From Bryocella elongata (GTDB lineage Bacteria > Acidobacteriota > Terriglobia > Terriglobales > Acidobacteriaceae), in NCBI RefSeq assembly GCF_900108185.1, contig NZ_FNVA01000008.1, positions 124,001 through 188,000 of the forward strand: a stretch of DNA of 64,000 nucleotides. The letters are read 5' to 3'. The notes beneath the pieces are model-generated. The model was not told the DNA's origin, did not search any database, and worked only from the letters and a program-made list of their open reading frames with translations. Shown here piece after piece: positions 30,742 through 46,089 of this stretch. Position 1 is the stretch's first letter. Each line of letters opens with the position of its first letter. Both the position numbers and the translations under genes were made by a program.

Positions 30742-32145
30742 ATGAACGACGCTGCGTGCAATCCGACCCCTTTCTCTTTCGCTAAAACGATGCTCTTCCT
30801 TGTGTGTGCAGTTGCAGCTCTGTCGGGTTGTGGCGCTGACCGCTTCGTCTCGGCAGCGAGCGTCACGTCTTCGTCTTCCAGTGCTTCTTCTTCCGCCTCC
30901 TCATCATCGTCTTCGTCCTCGTCCTCGTCCTCGTCCTCGTCGTCGAGCTCCCCCACTACCGTCACGTCGAGTGCTCCGTCGATCGTGGCTTCGTCGACGA
31001 ATGGCTATATGATCACCGCCGGCGGCACGTATAGCGGTACGTTCAGCAGCGATGATCCCAACGTCCCAGCTGTCTCGATCCTGACGACGGCTCCAGTGAT
31101 TCTGGAGAACGCCACGCTCAGCAGCCGCGGCGACCTGATCCACATTCTGTCCGCCGGCATCCACGTCGGCAGCAATGTGACGATCCGGAACGTCACCGGA
31201 ACAGCTCTTGATCCTGGGGTTGCAGGCTTGCATCGTGGTGCGTTCGTTCGCGATGAAGAGGTCAACACGCTTTCGGTGACGAACTGCACCATGACCGGCG
31301 TGAGCTTCGGAATCTACGTCGCGCCGATCGCTTCAGCTGGTCAGATCACGCTTGATAACAACATGGCCTTCAACATGGAAGACAGGCCGAGCGACGGCAA
31401 TGGCAACCTGGTCGCTTCGCGCGAGATGAAAGGACATTTCATTCAGCTGAACGAGGTCCCGCTGACAAAGGGAGCGGACATCGGTTGGAACCAGGTGATC
31501 GATACACCGGGTGAAGCTTCCGTGGAAGACATCATCGATATCGCTCAGAGCCAGGGAACGGCAGCGAATCCCATCAACATCCACGACAACTATCTTGAAG
31601 GTGCGTTCTCCACGGGCACCAGCGGCTATGACTACACCGGCGGAGGCATCATGAATGAGGGCATCGATCCCAGCTTTGCGCTCACGAACGCCTTCGTCAC
31701 GATCACAAACAATGTTGTGGTGCATACCGCCAATTACGGGATCGGTCTGGCCTATGGGCACGACATCACCGAGACAAATAACCGCGTGGTGTCATGTGGC
31801 GTCGACAGCAATGGTGTCTGGTATGAGGGGCTCAGCGGCATCGCCTTTGGCATCGCGAACTTCACGTCGCCGTATTTCTATAACAATCACATCAGTGGCG
31901 CGACCGGGGGCCTGGTGCGGCCGGCGACCGTCGGGGGAGCACCTCTGGGTGCCGACTACTGGGCACCTTCGTTGAGCACAGCGAACAACAACACCATGAC
32001 GGGTTCAGCCTTCGATGACCCATGCTGGACGAGCCCCACGACGGTTTCGAACCAGGCGGAGATTGTTGAGCGGACGAAGTGGAATGCCAAGGTGCTCCAG
32101 GCCCAGCAGGTCCTCGGCGACACGCATACGCAACAGGTCCAGTAG
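30742..32145 (+). CDS. Lipoprotein with poly-serine linker and right-handed beta-helix domain
   Basis: 467 residues. An N-terminal signal with lipobox LSGC (AVAALSGCGAD) marks a lipoprotein. A roughly 30-residue serine-rich tract (about 43-70), encoded largely by repeated TCG/TCC codons near 30870-30950, links it to an Asn-rich parallel beta-helix region (repeats such as TIRNVTGTALD, ITLDNNMAFNM, INIHDNYLEG, ITNNVVVHTANYGIGL) of the pectate-lyase-like/NosD kind. Catalytic residues of a particular polysaccharide lyase are not evident. Probably a surface-exposed glycan-binding or -degrading protein. An internal ATG at 30790 is a possible alternative start. Confidence 0.8.
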   Translation: MNDAACNPTPFSFAKTMLFLVCAVAALSGCGADRFVSAASVTSSSSSASSSASSSSSSSSSSSSSSSSSSPTTVTSSAPSIVASSTNGYMITAGGTYSGTFSSDDPNVPAVSILTTAPVILENATLSSRGDLIHILSAGIHVGSNVTIRNVTGTALDPGVAGLHRGAFVRDEEVNTLSVTNCTMTGVSFGIYVAPIASAGQITLDNNMAFNMEDRPSDGNGNLVASREMKGHFIQLNEVPLTKGADIGWNQVIDTPGEASVEDIIDIAQSQGTAANPINIHDNYLEGAFSTGTSGYDYTGGGIMNEGIDPSFALTNAFVTITNNVVVHTANYGIGLAYGHDITETNNRVVSCGVDSNGVWYEGLSGIAFGIANFTSPYFYNNHISGATGGLVRPATVGGAPLGADYWAPSLSTANNNTMTGSAFDDPCWTSPTTVSNQAEIVERTKWNAKVLQAQQVLGDTHTQQVQ

Positions 32146-37082: not shown

Positions 37083-38723
37083 ATGGGTTTGACGCGGCGG
37101 CAGTTTTTGACCAGGGTCGGCGATGCGGGTGGCTACAGCGCGGCGTTCATCGCCATGCAGGGCCTCGGCCTGATGGAGGCACGTGCCACAGAGGTGCCCG
37201 AGCTGATGGCAGCTCCCGCCTCCGGGCACGGCACGAAGGTGGTCATCCTCGGTGGTGGCATCTCGGGCCTCGTCGCTGCGTATGAGCTGCGCAAACTCGG
37301 CTACAGCGTTACCGTGCTGGAGGCGCGCAATCGCCCCGGCGGCCGCAACTGGACCGTGCGCGGCGGCGACAAGGTGACCTTCACTGACGGCACGACGCAA
37401 ACCTGTACCTGGGGCGAGGGAAGCTACCAGAACTTTGGTCCTGCCCGCCTGCCCTCTGCCCATACCAACATCCTTGGCTACTGCCACAAGCTCGGCGTCG
37501 AGCTGCAGGTCGAGGTCAACATGACCAACTCGGCCTTCCTGCAGAACGACAACGCCAACGGCGGCAAGCCGGAGATGATGCGGCGCGTCGTAAACGATAC
37601 ACGCGGTCACGTCAGCCAGCTGCTCTCGAAGTGTGTGAAAACCGGCGCACTCGACCAGGACCTCTCGTCAGAGGATAAGGACAAGATGCTGTCGTTCCTT
37701 CGCGTGTACGGCCCGCTCGATCTTGGCGGCAAGTACAACGGCAGCGAACGCGCCGGCTACTCGGAGCTTCCGGGAGCGGGCGACAAGGCCGGCACCATCA
37801 ACCCCGCCATCGACCTGCACACGCTGCTCGACGAACGCTTCTGGCAGGGCATGATGTTCGATCAGCAGTTCGACATGCAGGCGACGATGTTTCAGCCCGT
37901 CGGCGGCATGGACCGCATCCCCTATGCGTTCGCGAAGGAGCTCGGTTCGATCATCAAGTACGAGTGCCCGGTCACGGAGATCCGCAAGACCGGAGCGGGC
38001 GTCACCATCACCTACATGGAGAAGGGCGCAAGCAAGCAGATCAGCGCGGACTACTGCCTCAACGGCCTTCCGCTGACGCAGCTCAAGAAGATCCCCAACG
38101 ATCTCAGCGCGCCGTACAAGCAGGTGATCGATGCGACGACCTACGCTTCGGCGTACAAGATCGCGTGGGAGTCGCGCCGGTTCTGGGAGCAGGATCAGAA
38201 CATCTTCGGCGGCCTCGAGTTCTGCAACGTAGGCTGCAGCCCCATCTGGTTCCCGTCGGCAAAGATGTTCTCGCCGCGTGGCGTCCTCGTCAGTGGCTAC
38301 ACGGACGAGACGAACTCGCCCTTCAGCAAGCTGACCATGCCGCAGAAGTTTGACGAGAGCCGCAAGTCGATCGAGCGTCTGCACCCTGGCTTCGGCAAAG
38401 AGCTCGAGAAGCCGATGTACGTTACCTGGGGCCGGATTCCTTACAACGAGGGCTCGTGGATTCGTGGCTACGGCCAGCCCGAGCACCCGGTCACCACGCA
38501 GCCTTCGGCAGCCGGTGGTTCGGTCAACCAGGGCTACGAGACGCTCTGCCAGCCCGATGGCCCGATCATCTTCATCGGCGATCACGTGAGCCACATCGTG
38601 GCATGGCAGGAGGGCGCAGCGCTCAGCGGTCTCCGCGGCGTACAGCTGCTCACGGAACGTGTGAAGGCGGCGCGGCTTGCATCGCCGTTCGCTACGCAGG
38701 GACGTGAGGCGGTCGCCGTCTAA
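37083..38723 (+). CDS. Tat-exported flavin amine oxidase / L-amino-acid-oxidase-like protein
   Basis: 546-residue FAD-dependent amine oxidase. Twin-arginine signal MGLTRRQFLTRVG at the N-terminus, then the FAD Rossmann motif VVILGGGISGLVAAYELR (GGGISG at 57-62) with LEARNRPGGRN, and the C-terminal FAD contact region GPIIFIGDHVSHIVAWQEGAALSG. Family members oxidise primary amines or L-amino acids to imines with release of hydrogen peroxide. GGAGGTAGG precedes the ATG at 37083. It starts a same-strand series with a TonB receptor and two more Tat-signal enzymes acting on amino-acid-type substrates. Substrate unknown. Confidence 0.9.
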   Translation: MGLTRRQFLTRVGDAGGYSAAFIAMQGLGLMEARATEVPELMAAPASGHGTKVVILGGGISGLVAAYELRKLGYSVTVLEARNRPGGRNWTVRGGDKVTFTDGTTQTCTWGEGSYQNFGPARLPSAHTNILGYCHKLGVELQVEVNMTNSAFLQNDNANGGKPEMMRRVVNDTRGHVSQLLSKCVKTGALDQDLSSEDKDKMLSFLRVYGPLDLGGKYNGSERAGYSELPGAGDKAGTINPAIDLHTLLDERFWQGMMFDQQFDMQATMFQPVGGMDRIPYAFAKELGSIIKYECPVTEIRKTGAGVTITYMEKGASKQISADYCLNGLPLTQLKKIPNDLSAPYKQVIDATTYASAYKIAWESRRFWEQDQNIFGGLEFCNVGCSPIWFPSAKMFSPRGVLVSGYTDETNSPFSKLTMPQKFDESRKSIERLHPGFGKELEKPMYVTWGRIPYNEGSWIRGYGQPEHPVTTQPSAAGGSVNQGYETLCQPDGPIIFIGDHVSHIVAWQEGAALSGLRGVQLLTERVKAARLASPFATQGREAVAV

Positions 38724-39384: not shown

Positions 39385-42300
39385 ATGATGAATCTGTTGT
39401 TTTCGAAGGCACGTACATTCGGCCTTCTACTGGTTGTTCTGGCAGCAGCCTTCTCGTCCGTCTCGGCGCAGACAAGCTACGGCGGTCTGCGCGGTGAGGT
39501 AAAGGATTCGCAGGGCGCAGTGATAAGCGGCGCCGAGATCACCCTCACCAACGAAGACACGAAGATCACACGCTCCGCTGTCACCAACAGCGCGGGCGTG
39601 TATCTGTTTGGCGGCGTCGATCCCGGCACCTACAAGGTGACGATCGCGATGCCGGGGTTCAAGACCTTCGACTCTCCGGGACACATCGTCTCGCTTGGCG
39701 TTACGGCGACCGCCGATGCTTCGCTGCAGATCGGCGCCAAGGGGGAGACCATTGAGGTCACCGCCGACTCGCTCGAGCTGCAGACCTCCACCGCGTCCGG
39801 TGGCCAGCTCTACAACGCGCAGCAGGTTGAGGATCTGCCGCTGCTCGGGCGCAATCCCTTCATGCTCGAGGCGTTCGACGCCAACGTCGTGACACTCGGC
39901 GACCCGCGTTATGTGCGCGCCGAGGACCAGACCGGCAGCTCGCAGGTCTCGCTCGCGGGTGCTCCTTCGAACTCCAACAGCTACGTGGTCGATGGCATTC
40001 CGATCTCAACGTCATCGGGTGGTGTCACCTTCATCCCCACCGTCGAAGCTGTCTCCGACGCGAAGATCCAGGCCAACACCTACGACGCTGAGGTTGGCCG
40101 CTCTGGTGGCGGCATCTTCGCGTCGGATCTGAAGTCAGGCTCCTCGCAGTACCACGGTGTGCTCTACGGTGAAACTCGCCAGACCGGCTGGTCGGGCAAT
40201 CTGTGGTTCAACCACTTCGCCTTCGGCGGAGCTGGAGCACCGACTCCGAGTGACGAGACCTATATCTACGAGGGTGCGTTCGGAGGTCCGCTCGTTCCCC
40301 CGTTGCTCAGGGACAAGGCACCCCACTGGCTCGACCAGACCTTCTACTGGCTCGATGAAGCGGGCTATCGCCAGGGACAGCCGCTGACGGGCGTCACCAC
40401 CAGCTTCTACACGCCCACAACCGCCGAACGCTCCGGCGACTTCTCCGCCTACGCACCGAACACGGGTAGCTCGACCTCCTGCACGGGGGCCCAGTCGAAC
40501 TGCTACATCCTCTACGATCCGACGACCTTCCCGCGTGTGTCTTTCCTTCAGGAAACCGGAGCGAATAAGATCCCGGCGTCCTACATCAACCCGCTCGGCC
40601 AGTACACGGTCAACCAGTTTCCCTCGCCGACCGCCAGCTACATCTACGGAACCACCGGCCAGTCGTATAACTTCTCCAACCCGAGCAGCGCGTTCAAGAG
40701 CCGCGACGACACGTACTCCGGCAAGCTGGAGCACACGTTCTTCCCCTGGTACACGGCGAGCGCGTCGTATGTGCACTCGGCCATCCAGGAACCCAGCGGT
40801 AACGCGCTGATTGTGCCTTTCGCAAGCAGCACCAAGCTGCTGCGCTACACGGACGCAACAGCGATCAACAATACCTTCACCATCAACCCCACGACGCTTC
40901 TCACGGTCGCCTACGGATACAACCGTTACTACAGCGCCTCGTTCCAGTACTCGACTGGCTTCAATGCGGCGACAGGCTTCGGCGGAACCGGTTTCCCGGC
41001 AGCTTTCGCCAGCCAGCTACAGTCGGCAACGTTCCCGGCCATCAGTCTCTCGAGCGTGAGCGGCGCAGCCGGCATCGGTGCATCGAACGGCGGGCCTACG
41101 GTCTACGCTTCGCACAACGTGGTAGCGGTTGCGTCCAAGACCCTCGGGCGGCACACCATCAAGGCCGGGTACGAGTATCGCGGCTTTGACGTCTACACGA
41201 ATCCGACCTCAGGTGGTGCGGGCTCGTTCACCTTCGACGGACAATACACCAACTCCACAGGTCTCTCCGACAGCGGTTCGCCACGCTCGATTGCCGACCT
41301 GCTCGTCGGGCAGCCGTCGTCAGCGACGGTGACGTTGAACTCCGGCGTCTTCATCAACAAGATCAACTACAACTCGCTCTTTGCGCAGGATGACTTCCGC
41401 TTCAGCAGCAAGCTCACCGTCAATGCGGGCTTGCGCTACGAGTACGAGCCTGGACAGACCGAGCAGCGCAACCGCTATAACGTCGGCTTCGATCCAAAGG
41501 CGACGGGAAGCTATGTCAACGCTGCCGGCAACACGGTGAACTTCACCGGGGCTCTGGCCTTCGCCGGCCAGAACGGTGAGCCGACCCACTGCTGCAACAA
41601 CAGCCATACGAAGTTCTCGCCACGCATCGGCATCTCCTACTCGCCCGATAGCAAGACCGTGGTCCACGCGGGCTATGGCATCTTCTTCGCTCCTGTGGGC
41701 ATCGCCGCTGCCACTACCGGCTATTCGCAGACCAGCACCTACAGCATCACCTCGGCGACGGCCGGCGTTGCGGTTGGCAACGCTGCGTACCTCTCGAATC
41801 CGTTTCCGTCGGGCCTGCTGCAGCCCACGGGCAACACTCTCGGGCCGCTGACTGGCCTGGGCAGCTCTCTCACCGGTTCTTCAACCTACGCCTTCACCAC
41901 CGGCCTGCAGGACTTCCAGAAGCGCTTCCCGTTCGTCGAGCAGTATTCGCTGGACGTAGAGCGTGCGATCCCGTGGGGCATCATGGCCAAGGTCGGATAC
42001 TACGGTGCGCATGCTCGCAACTATGCGAACTACACCAACATCAATCAGCTGTCGGACACGGTCATGGCCAGCTACGCTCAGGGCGGTTCGAACTATGGCC
42101 AGAGCCTTGCGACCAAGGTGACGAACCCCTTCTACGCGAAGACCATCGGCGGCCTTCCGGCGACGGGCACTGTCTCCACAACGACCATCGCACAAGGCCA
42201 GCTGCTGCTGCCGTTCCCGCAGTTCGGTGCGGTCTACGTGCTGAGGTCTTCGGGCTACTCCAACTACAACTCGCTGGTCTTCAAGGCGGAGAAGCACACC

Positions 42301-43095
42301 CGCAACGGCCTGACCATGCTGGCGACATACACCTGGTCTGCGAACTGGGACAACATCTGGAGCACAGGCTCGCAGATCTACAGCTCCTACGGTCCGCAGG
42401 ACGCCTACAACCCGCGAGGTGAGTACGCTCGCTCGCTCAATAGCATTCCTAACCGCGCGACCGCCGCTGTAACCTACGAGCTTCCGTTCGGCCGCGGCAA
42501 GAAGTACCTCTCCGGCGCGAACCGGCTGGTCGATTCCGTCGTCGGTGGATGGTCGATCTCGGACGAATGGATCGATCAAAACGGTGTACCGCTCAGCATT
42601 CAGCAGACCGATCTGAGCTCGGGAACGTATGGCACGACGGGTATCGGCGGCACGTATCAGCGCCCGAACCTGGCGGGCGATGCCCATGCCGTCTGCGGTT
42701 CGGGTAAGCCCCAGACCCGCCTCGGGAACTTCAGTAGCGCTGCAACCGCTGAAGCTCCTTACGTCAAGTCGTCGGCACTTACTCCCGCCGCGCCGTACAC
42801 CTACGGCAACGCGCCACGCATGCTGCCGTGCCGCGCACCTGGCTACGATGCCCAGAACATCTCGGTGTTCAAGGACATCAAAATCTCTGAGCGGTTCACC
42901 TTCCAGTTCCGTGCGGAAGCACTGAATGCTATGAACACGCCGGAGTTCGCTCCTCCCTCGCTGTCCTACACGGTTAGCACTCCCGCTTCGGTGACGGCCA
43001 CACCGGCAGCCTCGTCGTCGCAGACATTCGGTAACATCACGACAACGGTGGGCTTCGCCAGAATCATTCAGCTGGGAGGGCGACTCAGCTTCTGA
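39385..43095 (+). CDS. TonB-dependent receptor, Oar-like, with carboxypeptidase-regulatory-like domain
   Basis: 1236-residue outer-membrane receptor, the largest gene in the window. Signal peptide (GLLLVVLAAAFSSVSAQ), regulatory-like domain (YGGLRGEVKDSQGAVISGAEI), plug (VEDLPLLGRNPFMLEAF, NSYVVDGIPIST) and a long barrel ending IIQLGGRLSF with terminal Phe. GAGG lies 4 nt before the ATG; a second ATG follows at once. It sits among Tat-exported amine/amino-acid enzymes and probably brings their substrate (peptide or amino conjugate) into the periplasm. Confidence 0.91.
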   Translation: MMNLLFSKARTFGLLLVVLAAAFSSVSAQTSYGGLRGEVKDSQGAVISGAEITLTNEDTKITRSAVTNSAGVYLFGGVDPGTYKVTIAMPGFKTFDSPGHIVSLGVTATADASLQIGAKGETIEVTADSLELQTSTASGGQLYNAQQVEDLPLLGRNPFMLEAFDANVVTLGDPRYVRAEDQTGSSQVSLAGAPSNSNSYVVDGIPISTSSGGVTFIPTVEAVSDAKIQANTYDAEVGRSGGGIFASDLKSGSSQYHGVLYGETRQTGWSGNLWFNHFAFGGAGAPTPSDETYIYEGAFGGPLVPPLLRDKAPHWLDQTFYWLDEAGYRQGQPLTGVTTSFYTPTTAERSGDFSAYAPNTGSSTSCTGAQSNCYILYDPTTFPRVSFLQETGANKIPASYINPLGQYTVNQFPSPTASYIYGTTGQSYNFSNPSSAFKSRDDTYSGKLEHTFFPWYTASASYVHSAIQEPSGNALIVPFASSTKLLRYTDATAINNTFTINPTTLLTVAYGYNRYYSASFQYSTGFNAATGFGGTGFPAAFASQLQSATFPAISLSSVSGAAGIGASNGGPTVYASHNVVAVASKTLGRHTIKAGYEYRGFDVYTNPTSGGAGSFTFDGQYTNSTGLSDSGSPRSIADLLVGQPSSATVTLNSGVFINKINYNSLFAQDDFRFSSKLTVNAGLRYEYEPGQTEQRNRYNVGFDPKATGSYVNAAGNTVNFTGALAFAGQNGEPTHCCNNSHTKFSPRIGISYSPDSKTVVHAGYGIFFAPVGIAAATTGYSQTSTYSITSATAGVAVGNAAYLSNPFPSGLLQPTGNTLGPLTGLGSSLTGSSTYAFTTGLQDFQKRFPFVEQYSLDVERAIPWGIMAKVGYYGAHARNYANYTNINQLSDTVMASYAQGGSNYGQSLATKVTNPFYAKTIGGLPATGTVSTTTIAQGQLLLPFPQFGAVYVLRSSGYSNYNSLVFKAEKHTRNGLTMLATYTWSANWDNIWSTGSQIYSSYGPQDAYNPRGEYARSLNSIPNRATAAVTYELPFGRGKKYLSGANRLVDSVVGGWSISDEWIDQNGVPLSIQQTDLSSGTYGTTGIGGTYQRPNLAGDAHAVCGSGKPQTRLGNFSSAATAEAPYVKSSALTPAAPYTYGNAPRMLPCRAPGYDAQNISVFKDIKISERFTFQFRAEALNAMNTPEFAPPSLSYTVSTPASVTATPAASSSQTFGNITTTVGFARIIQLGGRLSF

Positions 43096-43205: not shown

Positions 43206-44456
43206 GTGGGGGAAGTACCGAAGTTTGGCGGGGAAGTGAGTCGCCGCCAGTTTCTCTATGGTTCGGCAGCACTGGCTGGTTCCAGTGTGCTTGGACTCAG
43301 TGGTTGCGGAAAGACCGCGAAGTCCCCAGCGGTGGGCCTGGCGCCAGCGTTGCCGTTTTATGACGCGTATCAGCCGCTCGTGCCGATCCGCGTTCACACA
43401 GATCGAATCTTCCGCATCACTGTCTGCCTGCGTCCATTTCGAGCGCAGGGGCCGCGCATGGAAGCCGAGAAGATCGGCGACAAGACGGTGGTCTACAACT
43501 ACGGCCACGGGGGTAGCGGCTGGTCGCTCTCCTGGGGATGCGCGGATGTCGTCACGAAGATGGCGATGGAGGCCGCGCAGGGAGCACGCGAGATTGCTGT
43601 GATCGGCGCGGGAGCCCTGGGGCTTACCGCAGCTACGATTCTGCAGCGTGCCGGAGCGAAGGTGACCGTCTATGCGAAGGAGCGTGCGCCGTACACCCGC
43701 AGCTCGCGCGCTACGGGCAGCTGGACGCCTTCGTCGCGCATCGCGCTGAGCTCCGCCATGGGCCCGGACTTCGCCACAAAGTGGGAGTCGATGGCGCGCA
43801 CCTCGTTCGCCTACTACCAGAGCTTCCTCGGCACGCCCGGTGCGCCTATCGAGTGGACCGATCGCTACAGCCTTTGGGACGAAGAGCGTAAGCCCGGAGA
43901 GCGTCGCGCCTCCTCTGTGCCGCAGATTCATGACTTCGCGCATCTCGACGATCGCATCGCCGACCTTGTGCCGAAGCAGGAGGTGATGCCGCCGGGATCG
44001 ACGCCGTTCCCGACGAAGTATGTGGCCCGCACCTCCTCGATGAGCTTCAACGTGGCGGGTTACTCGCGGCAGCTCACCAGCGACATTCTCCTTGCCGGCG
44101 GCACGTTTGTAGATCGCGAGTTTCATTCGCCGCAGGACTTCGCTTCACTGCCGGAGAAGGTGATCGTCGTGTGCACGGGGTATGGCTCGCGTGCGTTGTT
44201 CAACGACGACAGCATCGTTCCCGTGCGTGGTCAGATCGCCTGGCTCATCCCGCAGGAGGGCGCGCAGTATGGGCTCAATTACAACGGTCTGAACATGCTC
44301 GCGCGCCGCGATGGCATCGTGATGCAGTACAGCAAAGGCGGCGAGGACGAAGGCTGGAACGACACCAACGAGGCTCCTGATCGCGCGTATGCGGAGCAGG
44401 GAATCAACGTTCTGGCCGAGCTCTACAGCCGCATGCAAGCGAAGATGAAGCCTTGA
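43206..44456 (+). CDS. Tat-exported, circularly permuted D-amino-acid-oxidase-like flavoprotein
   Basis: 416 residues. Twin-arginine signal with lipobox: SRRQFLYG (12-19) and LSGC (31-34), so probably a Tat-translocated lipoprotein. The order of DAAO motifs is unusual. The segment that ends ordinary DAAO, CLRPFRAQGPRMEAE (74-88) and NYGHGGSGWSLSWGCA (98-113), comes first; the FAD Rossmann motif VIGAGALGLTAA (132-143) follows; VVCTGYGSRAL and VRGQIAWL (321-347) come last and the protein ends where the C-terminal segment should begin. All main motifs are present once, so this looks like a circular permutation rather than a fragment. Expected chemistry: oxidative deamination of a D-amino acid or glycine-type substrate. 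Confidence 0.85.
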   Translation: MGEVPKFGGEVSRRQFLYGSAALAGSSVLGLSGCGKTAKSPAVGLAPALPFYDAYQPLVPIRVHTDRIFRITVCLRPFRAQGPRMEAEKIGDKTVVYNYGHGGSGWSLSWGCADVVTKMAMEAAQGAREIAVIGAGALGLTAATILQRAGAKVTVYAKERAPYTRSSRATGSWTPSSRIALSSAMGPDFATKWESMARTSFAYYQSFLGTPGAPIEWTDRYSLWDEERKPGERRASSVPQIHDFAHLDDRIADLVPKQEVMPPGSTPFPTKYVARTSSMSFNVAGYSRQLTSDILLAGGTFVDREFHSPQDFASLPEKVIVVCTGYGSRALFNDDSIVPVRGQIAWLIPQEGAQYGLNYNGLNMLARRDGIVMQYSKGGEDEGWNDTNEAPDRAYAEQGINVLAELYSRMQAKMKP

Positions 44457-44829: not shown

Positions 44830-46089
44830 ATGGAAGTGACAAAGTGTAGCTCGGAAGTCTCGCGACGTAACTTTATGCGCTGGATCAGCGCGGGTGCCGC
44901 GGCTGCCGCGGTGGTTCCCGGTCTCGCACCGAACGCGTTTGCCCAGCAGATGGCCGCCGACACCACGCCGCGTCGCCGCAGCGGCATGCCGGACTTCAGC
45001 CACCTTCCTCCCGACGCCGTCATCATCAGCTCCAACGAAAATCCCCTCGGACCCGCTGCTTCGGCTCTGGCGGCCGTCGGCCAGGTGGGCGTGTCGGGCG
45101 GCCGTTATGACCGCTTCGGCGTCGCTGCTGCGACCGTCAAGACCATCAGCGAGCAGTTCGGCCTCAAGCCGGGCTACGTCGAACTCTTCCCGGGTTCGGG
45201 TGGTCCGCTCGATATGGCGCTGATGTCCAACATCAGCCCGTCCAAGGGTCTGGTCTGCGCCGATCCCAGCTATGAGCAGGGTCCCCGCGCCGCAGCGACT
45301 TGTAAGGCCCCACTGAAGATGGTGCCGCTGACCAAGACCTACGCGCACGACGTGAAGGCGATGCTCGCAGCCGATCCGAACGCCGGCGCGTTCTACATCG
45401 TGAACCCCAACAACCCGACGGGCACCATGACGCCGAAGGAAGACATCCTCTGGCTCATTAAGAACAAGCCCAAGGGCTCCGTGGTCATCGTCGACGAAGC
45501 GTACTTCCACTTCTCGAACGATGAGTCCGTGATCGACCAGGTCGTTGCCGACCAGGACGTGATCGTGATGCGCACGTTCTCGAAGATCTACGGCATGGCT
45601 GGCGTCCGCGCGGGCTTTGCCTTTGGGCGCCCCGACCTGCTGGCCAAGTTCCAGACCATCTCTCCGGAGATCTCGCTGCGCAATGTTGCTTCGGTGTCGC
45701 TCTTCGCCGCGGCTGCGGCGCACGCCAGCCTGCTTGATCCGAAGCTGGTTCCGGAGCGCAAGAAGATCAACACCGACATCCGCGAGTCCACGCTTGAGTT
45801 CCTCGACAAGCGCGGCTACAAGATCGTCCCCGGCTCCCAGGCCAACATGTTCATGGTCGACGTCAACCGCCCCGGTCGCGAGTTCATGGGCAACATGATC
45901 AAGGAAGGCGTTGTCATCGGCCGCTCCTGGTCGGCGATGCCCAACTATGTTCGCGTCACCGTCGGCACCAAGCCGGAGATGGAGAAGTTCCAGACCGCCT
46001 TCGTCAAGTGCATGGACATGCCGCCGGCCACCGTCAGTGCTTCGCTCCACGCCGAGCTCGACATGCCGTCCGAGCTCTGGCGCGCTTGA
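44830..46089 (+). CDS. Tat-exported HisC-like PLP-dependent aminotransferase
   Basis: 419-residue fold-type I aminotransferase resembling histidinol-phosphate aminotransferase. PLP site: NPNNPTG (192-198), Asp222 and Tyr225 in VIVDEAYFHF, and Lys252 in RTFSKIYGMAGVRAGF as Schiff-base lysine. Ahead of the catalytic domain (which starts about residue 62, VIISSNENPLGP) is a twin-arginine signal, SRRNFMRWISAGAAAAAVVPG, with cleavage near NAFAQQ. AGGAGA precedes the ATG. Export of a PLP enzyme is uncommon and demands folded Tat transport with bound cofactor. In context it probably transaminates or racemises an amino acid in the periplasm; no histidine genes are near. Confidence 0.88.
   Translation: MEVTKCSSEVSRRNFMRWISAGAAAAAVVPGLAPNAFAQQMAADTTPRRRSGMPDFSHLPPDAVIISSNENPLGPAASALAAVGQVGVSGGRYDRFGVAAATVKTISEQFGLKPGYVELFPGSGGPLDMALMSNISPSKGLVCADPSYEQGPRAAATCKAPLKMVPLTKTYAHDVKAMLAADPNAGAFYIVNPNNPTGTMTPKEDILWLIKNKPKGSVVIVDEAYFHFSNDESVIDQVVADQDVIVMRTFSKIYGMAGVRAGFAFGRPDLLAKFQTISPEISLRNVASVSLFAAAAAHASLLDPKLVPERKKINTDIRESTLEFLDKRGYKIVPGSQANMFMVDVNRPGREFMGNMIKEGVVIGRSWSAMPNYVRVTVGTKPEMEKFQTAFVKCMDMPPATVSASLHAELDMPSELWRA

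Follow-up and report, generated by a model that had tools for sequence, protein, structure and literature searches.

A D-amino-acid-oxidase-like flavoprotein in circularly permuted order from Bryocella elongata

A stretch of 64,000 nucleotides from Bryocella elongata (assembly GCF_900108185.1, contig NZ_FNVA01000008.1, positions 124,001 to 188,000 of the forward strand; hereafter the window) carries an open reading frame (ORF) which the initial annotation, made from the letters of the sequence, had described as a flavoprotein resembling D-amino-acid oxidase (DAAO) with its blocks in circularly permuted order. Our analysis supports this description, and the gene almost certainly encodes a natural circular permutant of the DAAO type. 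Much work has been done on DAAO, and a natural permutant of it has apparently not been reported: a search of the open-licence PMC literature for permuted DAAO or DAAO exported by the twin-arginine translocation (Tat) system returned, among the matches listed, no description of a permuted DAAO, in agreement with the annotation's remark that no such member of the family was known. The features of the gene are as follows (FAD, flavin adenine dinucleotide; aa, amino acids).

43206..44456, plus strand: permuted DAAO-like flavoprotein, 416 aa from GTG 43206 or 406 aa with a start at GTG 43236
43236..43307, plus strand: predicted twin-arginine signal SRRQFL... and lipobox-like LSGC (Cys34), from the sequence and alignment A2
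43389..43577, plus strand: N-terminal permuted block, residues ~62-124, with a strand, LRPFR (R76, corresponding to DAAO Arg283), NYGHGGSG and the WGCA helix
43590..44399, plus strand: Rossmann FAD-binding half and middle part, residues ~129-398 (PF01266 positions 2-291 at residues 130-398; Foldseek matches to DAAO)
44400..44453, plus strand: chain end inside the C-terminal helix, the likely cut end of the permutation (alignment with canonical proteins; model helix)

The true start may be GTG 43236 and not GTG 43206, because relatives start at that point (M-x-R-R). Each DAAO landmark is present once in the window protein but in rotated order, with LRPFRAQ at residues 75-81, NYGHGGSG at 98-105 and WGCAD from 110 (WGCA 110-113) in the first half, followed by IAVIGAGALG at 130-139, VRGQIA from 340 and GIVMQYSKGGE at 370-380 in the second. 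The annotation had placed the C-terminal motifs at 74-113, ahead of a Rossmann motif at 134-139, and these positions were right within 1-2 residues. The block at residues ~62-124 is C-terminal in canonical DAAO according to a canonical-only profile described below (model 262-318), PF01266 (290-352) and the motif positions, and the part at residues ~129-398 is N-terminal and middle in canonical DAAO. The canonical order, in which the Rossmann motif comes first and RPxR, NYGHGG and WGCA come last, is therefore not that of the window protein. The DAAO signature region around H-N-Y-G-H-G-G reads YNYGHGGSGWSLSWGCA at residues 97-113; at its first position the window protein has Tyr, where 7 of the 9 sequences in A2 have His.

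Profile searches reproduced the inverted order. The Pfam DAO profile (PF01266) matched the contig at 167359-167559 with profile positions 290-352 and then at 167593-168414 with positions 2-293, so that the two pieces jointly cover the 353 positions of the profile and homology extends over the whole DAO domain; the score of the whole protein was 89.2 bits against a cut-off of 27.9. Three canonical controls each gave a single PF01266 stretch (3-353, 1-349 and 2-350 of 353), and phmmer against the PDB aligned the window protein to Rasamsonia and pig DAAO in two inverted pieces. A hidden Markov model (HMM) of 322 positions was built from 11 canonical proteins only (Streptomyces, Mycobacterium, Halostagnicola, Vibrio and 7 from Acidobacteriota); it matched the window protein with model positions 262-318 followed by 4-204, and all 55 permuted proteins that we collected gave at least 2 domains in swapped order. 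The 11 canonical proteins each gave a single domain, the same 11 swapped in silico showed the inverted pattern, and none of 220 shuffled sequences matched. Rotation of the permutants in silico restored a single domain in 49/55 and a domain covering at least 85% of the model in 49/55; for the window protein, two pieces of 59.5 and 88.2 bits became one match of 150.3 bits over model positions 5-318 of 322.

It is important to note that the 55 permutants were gathered with permuted queries, and the figure of 55/55 therefore measures conservation within the family and not frequency. Near-identical pairs occur among the 55 and the 11 (e.g. L103/L104 and L142/L144), P0005, being the same gene as L098, was omitted from the tree and the HMM test, and the canonical locus L140, in which no ORF passed the motif filter, was excluded. 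For an order-blind search, a profile was made from 3 canonical proteins and run against 297 Acidobacteriota genomes, of which 38 had a match at E <= 1e-10. Counted from the table, 23 of these matches consisted of two swapped pieces, 8 were one strong continuous match, 3 (the window's genome, G236 and G281) showed only the NYGHGG piece of a known permuted gene, and 4 were weaker single matches (G132, G033, G157 and G275). A strong continuous canonical match was combined with permuted pieces in 0 of the 297 genomes at this threshold, numbers too small to set against chance.

The annotation had proposed a search for homologues with the same motif order, and 55 permuted proteins were found in many genomes, including other Acidobacteriota, Alphaproteobacteria and an actinomycete. 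A search for related loci gave 5 loci. At E <= 1e-30 the permuted family was present in 37 of 396 genomes of the phylum and in 17 of 210 genera, one match (G360) being a fragment; 40 of the 44 family matches were taken as regions, with G000 (the window's genome), G281, G253 and G360 omitted, and the G253 copy appears swapped in the order-blind table. Within the window's genome the permuted-family profile gave 557 bits for this gene and nothing else above 26 bits. Three genomes of one Acidobacteriota family (G100, G309 and G332) possess 3-4 permuted paralogues each. A tblastn search of a plasmid collection gave 6 records, of which 5 were read as permuted (Niveispirillum, Kozakia, Bradyrhizobium, Rhizobium and Nonomuraea) and the sixth, from Mesorhizobium, had the same order with a frameshift. 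In this Mesorhizobium onobrychidis copy (L074 3926-4989) the frameshift lies beside GxGxxG, and the gene is annotated as two FAD-dependent oxidoreductases. Scans of viral contigs added only two distinct further permutants; among viral HNYGHGG matches, an ORF with the motif was present in 12 of 14 loci, 9 of these 12 were non-permutants, unrelated-looking or in other frames, and canonical DAAO accounted for 0. The permuted genes from IMG/VR (L077 1414-2454 and L067 2926-4014) lie near ORFs that resemble terminases by eye, and the viral copy in L065/L077 is without the C-terminal part.

A tree of 66 proteins based on separately aligned blocks divided the 55 permutants from the 11 canonical proteins with support of 99.1 (SH-like approximate likelihood ratio test, SH-aLRT) and 99 (ultrafast bootstrap, UFBoot), with a rooting of our choice and some weakly supported inner nodes. 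This separation makes a single origin of the permuted family most likely. Two groups were apparent within it: Bradyrhizobium, Rhizobium, Nonomuraea and one viral protein make up a short one, and the other, which is large, has Tat-like N-termini. The relatives share the order and form one clade, and on these sequence comparisons the window protein is an old, fixed circular permutant rather than a fusion or assembly error. The alternative, that the gene is a fusion of two broken DAAO genes, a pseudogene or an assembly artefact, draws on the existence of broken copies such as the frameshifted one in Mesorhizobium L074; it was rejected and can be given hardly any credence, as every block is single, the order is the same in 55/55 proteins, the frame is open in the window and the tree shows the family as monophyletic. 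The annotation's opinion that a fused fragment was unlikely, since all blocks occur once, is thus upheld.

Alignment of the blocks located a single break point, which lies in the substrate domain: the GGT/GxW segment and the helix following it are on one side, and the strand that precedes RPxR is on the other. The alignment also showed that the former C-terminal helix after WGCA continues into beta-1. At the break point the chain would have been opened, while its former end, the C-terminal helix, became linked to the Rossmann-fold strand beta-1, probably in a single permutation event that may have proceeded via duplication, fusion and trimming. A first structure model from 6 close homologues had a mean predicted local distance difference test (pLDDT) of 42.8 and was useless; a second, based on the mature part of 8 sequences, serves for secondary structure and fold class only. 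In the second model a strand at 93-99, a helix at 109-124, a strand at 129-133, a helix at 137-148 and a strand at 152-157 form a plausible beta-alpha-beta-alpha-beta run around the join, and the junction appears topologically easy. The C-terminal helix occupies residues 393-414 in the first model and 389-413 in the second. A different arrangement, which the low confidence of the model leaves room for, would be a domain swap, in which the N-terminal block takes up the position of the canonical C-terminal part in a partner subunit and not in its own chain. However, YGH and the Rossmann start are 31-35 residues apart in 52/55 permutants and 41-45 in 3/55, and the modelled last helix of the block leads straight to beta-1 in the usual beta-alpha-beta step, which makes a swap quite improbable in comparison to an intramolecular permutant.

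Foldseek with the second model returned DAAO or D-aspartate oxidase (DASPO) at ranks 1-21 and L-amino-acid deaminase at rank 22. Four of the rows (4qfd and 4qfc) lack the enzyme name in their titles, and we take them to be human DAAO. The permuted profile matched 48 PDB sequences, and in none of them did the best stretch span both blocks; therefore no solved permutant was found.

The window protein is very probably exported by the Tat system, as judged from its N-terminus and those of its relatives. All 9 sequences of alignment A2, window protein included, have R13, R14, G33 and C34. Among 40 further relatives (L098-L137), RR occurred near the start in 40/40, in 36/40 by a stricter pattern (RR not followed by D/E), and a Cys within residues 13-50 in 37/40 (not in L124, L130 and L137); the window protein and most relatives are thus predicted to be lipid-anchored, probably at this Cys. 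In the short clade of Bradyrhizobium, Rhizobium, Nonomuraea and one viral protein, no Tat motif was seen by eye, though these proteins are permuted. The idea that permutation evolved to shift the lipid anchor to another face of the protein is weakened by this clade.

Three genes with possible functional links surround the permuted gene in the window.

37083..38723, plus strand: Tat-type flavin amine oxidase (PF01593, 120 bits; ORF from 36993, likely start ATG 37083; MGLTRRQFL)
39385..43095, plus strand: outer-membrane beta-barrel with carboxypeptidase-regulatory domain (PF25183, 566 bits; PF13620)
44830..46089, plus strand: Tat-type pyridoxal-phosphate (PLP) aminotransferase, HisC/PtaA-like (ORF from 44485, likely start ATG 44830)

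The label 'L-amino-acid-oxidase-like' for the product of 37083..38723 comes from the Pfam family name only, and the barrel is presumably Oar-like. Homologues of the amine oxidase were found near the permuted gene in L009 and L110, of the barrel beside it in L009, L010 and L011, and of the aminotransferase in L010 and L011. L011 is a metagenome-assembled contig labelled Rhodanobacteraceae, in which the permuted gene and its neighbourhood are Granulicella-like, and is probably a mis-binned acidobacterial contig. The Tat aminotransferase has relatives in many genomes of the class (85 of 250 at E <= 1e-60), and in G297 and G336 two copies each share a contig with the permuted gene, ~10-35 kb away from it. 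The Granulicella paludicola locus (L009) combines the amine oxidase and the barrel with an M19 dipeptidase and a RidA-family protein in which a signal peptide is visible by eye. In Kozakia (L062) they include a DadA-like enzyme, a beta-lactamase-family hydrolase, a second annotated serine hydrolase and an S9 peptidase, and a cytochrome c gene starts 5 bases downstream of the permuted gene. Strict operon logic was considered for these associations and rejected, as the neighbours are common to a minority of loci only.

The Tat amine oxidase, barrel and Tat aminotransferase in the window, together with the RidA-family protein, M19 dipeptidase, DadA-like enzyme and cytochrome c elsewhere, suggest deamination in the periplasm. 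The explanation that we favour, with a probability of roughly 0.7, is that the gene encodes a permuted enzyme of the DAAO superfamily which is exported and deaminates amino acids or small peptides in the periplasm. That it acts on amino acids or their peptides is rather likely, and that these are D-enantiomers has somewhat less than an even chance. In the window's branch the protein would be exported folded with its FAD by Tat and held by an N-terminal lipid anchor, as its motifs suggest, and its substrate for oxidative deamination would be an amino acid, or a small peptide attacked at its free amino-acid end. Arg76 would hold the carboxylate as Arg283 does in DAAO, a hydride would pass to FAD and the imine would hydrolyse to a 2-oxo acid, with the reduced FAD being re-oxidised by O2 or perhaps, in some species, by a periplasmic cytochrome c.

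Several observations count against this explanation. After rotation, 6 of the 55 permutants stayed split, Kozakia among them. The second structure model is weak (pLDDT 59.3; predicted template-modelling score, pTM, 0.59) and the query-normalised TM values of ranks 1-21 were 0.30-0.38; placement of the fold therefore rests on sequence and not on superposition, and although an order-dependent aligner may yield such low values for a permutant, superposition is not proved thereby. The Pfam TAT_signal model scored 15.8 bits, under its cut-off of 22.7. The neighbours are shared by few loci: of 44, window included, 3 have the amine oxidase nearby, 5 the barrel (in one case a fragment at the edge) and 3 the aminotransferase; this count covers the 44 of 50 loci in which the permuted gene was called, by crude gene calling with up to 4 genes per side. 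None of the 8 genes called as neighbours in the window encodes a CxxCH motif, and the genome's matches to the RidA family lie outside the window. Finally, the column of the canonical YVIPR tyrosine, which corresponds to pig Tyr228, has Asn363 in the window protein, and Y in 20 of 55 permutants and 8 of 11 canonical proteins.

In human DAAO, the substrate carboxylate is bound by Arg283 and Tyr228 (extract of PMC6279847). The Arg283 position is R in 55/55 permutants (R76 in the window protein, by alignment with pig DAAO) and in 10/11 canonical proteins. By clade, the Tyr228 column holds Y in 4/4 proteins of the short clade, in 2/16 of the window's clade (10 Asn) and in 14/35 of the others (16 His). 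With Arg283 conserved and the Tyr228 column variable, carboxylate binding was probably kept while substrate choice drifted, and since Tyr228 is replaced the enzyme may act on something other than an ordinary D-amino acid.

Classical DAAO and DASPO (PF01266; pig and human DAAO, Rasamsonia 7ct4 and human DASPO 6rkf) are the closest matches in the PDB by sequence and fold. They share with the window protein the GxGxxG Rossmann motif, LRPxR with Arg283, NYGHGGxG, the WGxA helix and the CTG and RGQ segments; unlike them, the window protein has the C-terminal block first, a Tat-like lipoprotein signal, Asn363 for Tyr228 and a QYSKGGEDEGW segment in place of GGT. From its alignments, the window protein is homologous to DAAO, yet departs from it in order and, in its branch, at Tyr228. 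The annotation mentioned neither the replacement of Tyr228 nor the Tat-like signal with its lipobox or the exported enzymes encoded nearby. DadA-type D-amino-acid dehydrogenase and glycine oxidase ThiO belong to the same superfamily (PF01266), and P0001 scored 25-36 bits with the DadA and ThiO models (cut-offs 250-494), its best stretch being the Rossmann segment. The DadA-like neighbour in Kozakia reached 361 bits with NF001933 (cut-off 383), and PF01266 matched it (P0011) in one stretch, 1-352, in canonical order. As the nearest precedent encountered, natural circular permutation has been proposed for a flavin-binding domain (Murzin 1998, cited in an extract of PMC13327496), which has an unrelated beta-barrel fold and is not of the Rossmann-type DAAO family.

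The altered pocket (N363) can also be interpreted as a sign that the enzyme is a periplasmic permuted flavoenzyme tailoring a peptide, siderophore or other secondary metabolite, in the manner of the PvdN/PtaA-type enzymes of pyoverdine maturation, acting together with the Tat aminotransferase and the outer-membrane barrel. PtaA of Pseudomonas is a Tat-exported periplasmic transaminase (extract of PMC6206403) and a relative of the neighbouring aminotransferase, which scores 350 bits with the PtaA model, under the cut-off of 500, and which likely belongs to another pathway; with NF006580 it reached 453.7 bits against a cut-off of 444. The window's genome has three peptide-synthetase condensation domains, but these are on contigs C7 and C10 and the window is on C16, and the neighbours in L009 and Kozakia (M19 dipeptidase, RidA family, DadA-like enzyme, peptidase) look degradative. 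Tailoring is consequently an unlikely role in comparison to periplasmic deamination.

A wider proposal, that this is an ancient and widespread permuted family of mostly periplasmic lipoprotein dehydrogenases which pass electrons from amino acids or peptidoglycan-derived D-peptides via cytochrome c to the respiratory chain, with a pocket remade after the loss of Tyr228, is doubtful as a whole; within it the permutation is strongly supported and the respiratory role speculative. The Kozakia pair of permuted gene and cytochrome c gene has a parallel in NicA2, a flavin enzyme that passes electrons to the cytochrome c CycN (extract of PMC10611581). NicA2 belongs to the flavin-dependent amine oxidase family, and the same extract makes no mention of permutation.

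Permuted and canonical proteins are both present in Acidobacteriota, which offers a ready comparison for the folding of an FAD domain whose last beta-alpha unit precedes beta-1. The family also allows one to ask if permutation alters oxygen reactivity and how such an oxidase is exported folded. Annotation by domain name ('FAD-dependent oxidoreductase') conceals chain order, and the results point toward exported amino-acid oxidation in soil Acidobacteriota.

Two further observations were made. The short-clade loci L060 4923-5975, L061 4920-6017 and L064 4890-5951 adjoin a thiamine-pyrophosphate enzyme (by annotation in L060 and L064, in L061 by eye), and an FAD-binding oxidoreductase is also beside the short-clade gene in both rhizobia, a possible unstudied gene cluster. 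In the window itself, positions 30742-32145 hold an ORF of 467 aa with a lipobox-like start, a long serine run and then a repeat-like region, as seen by eye.
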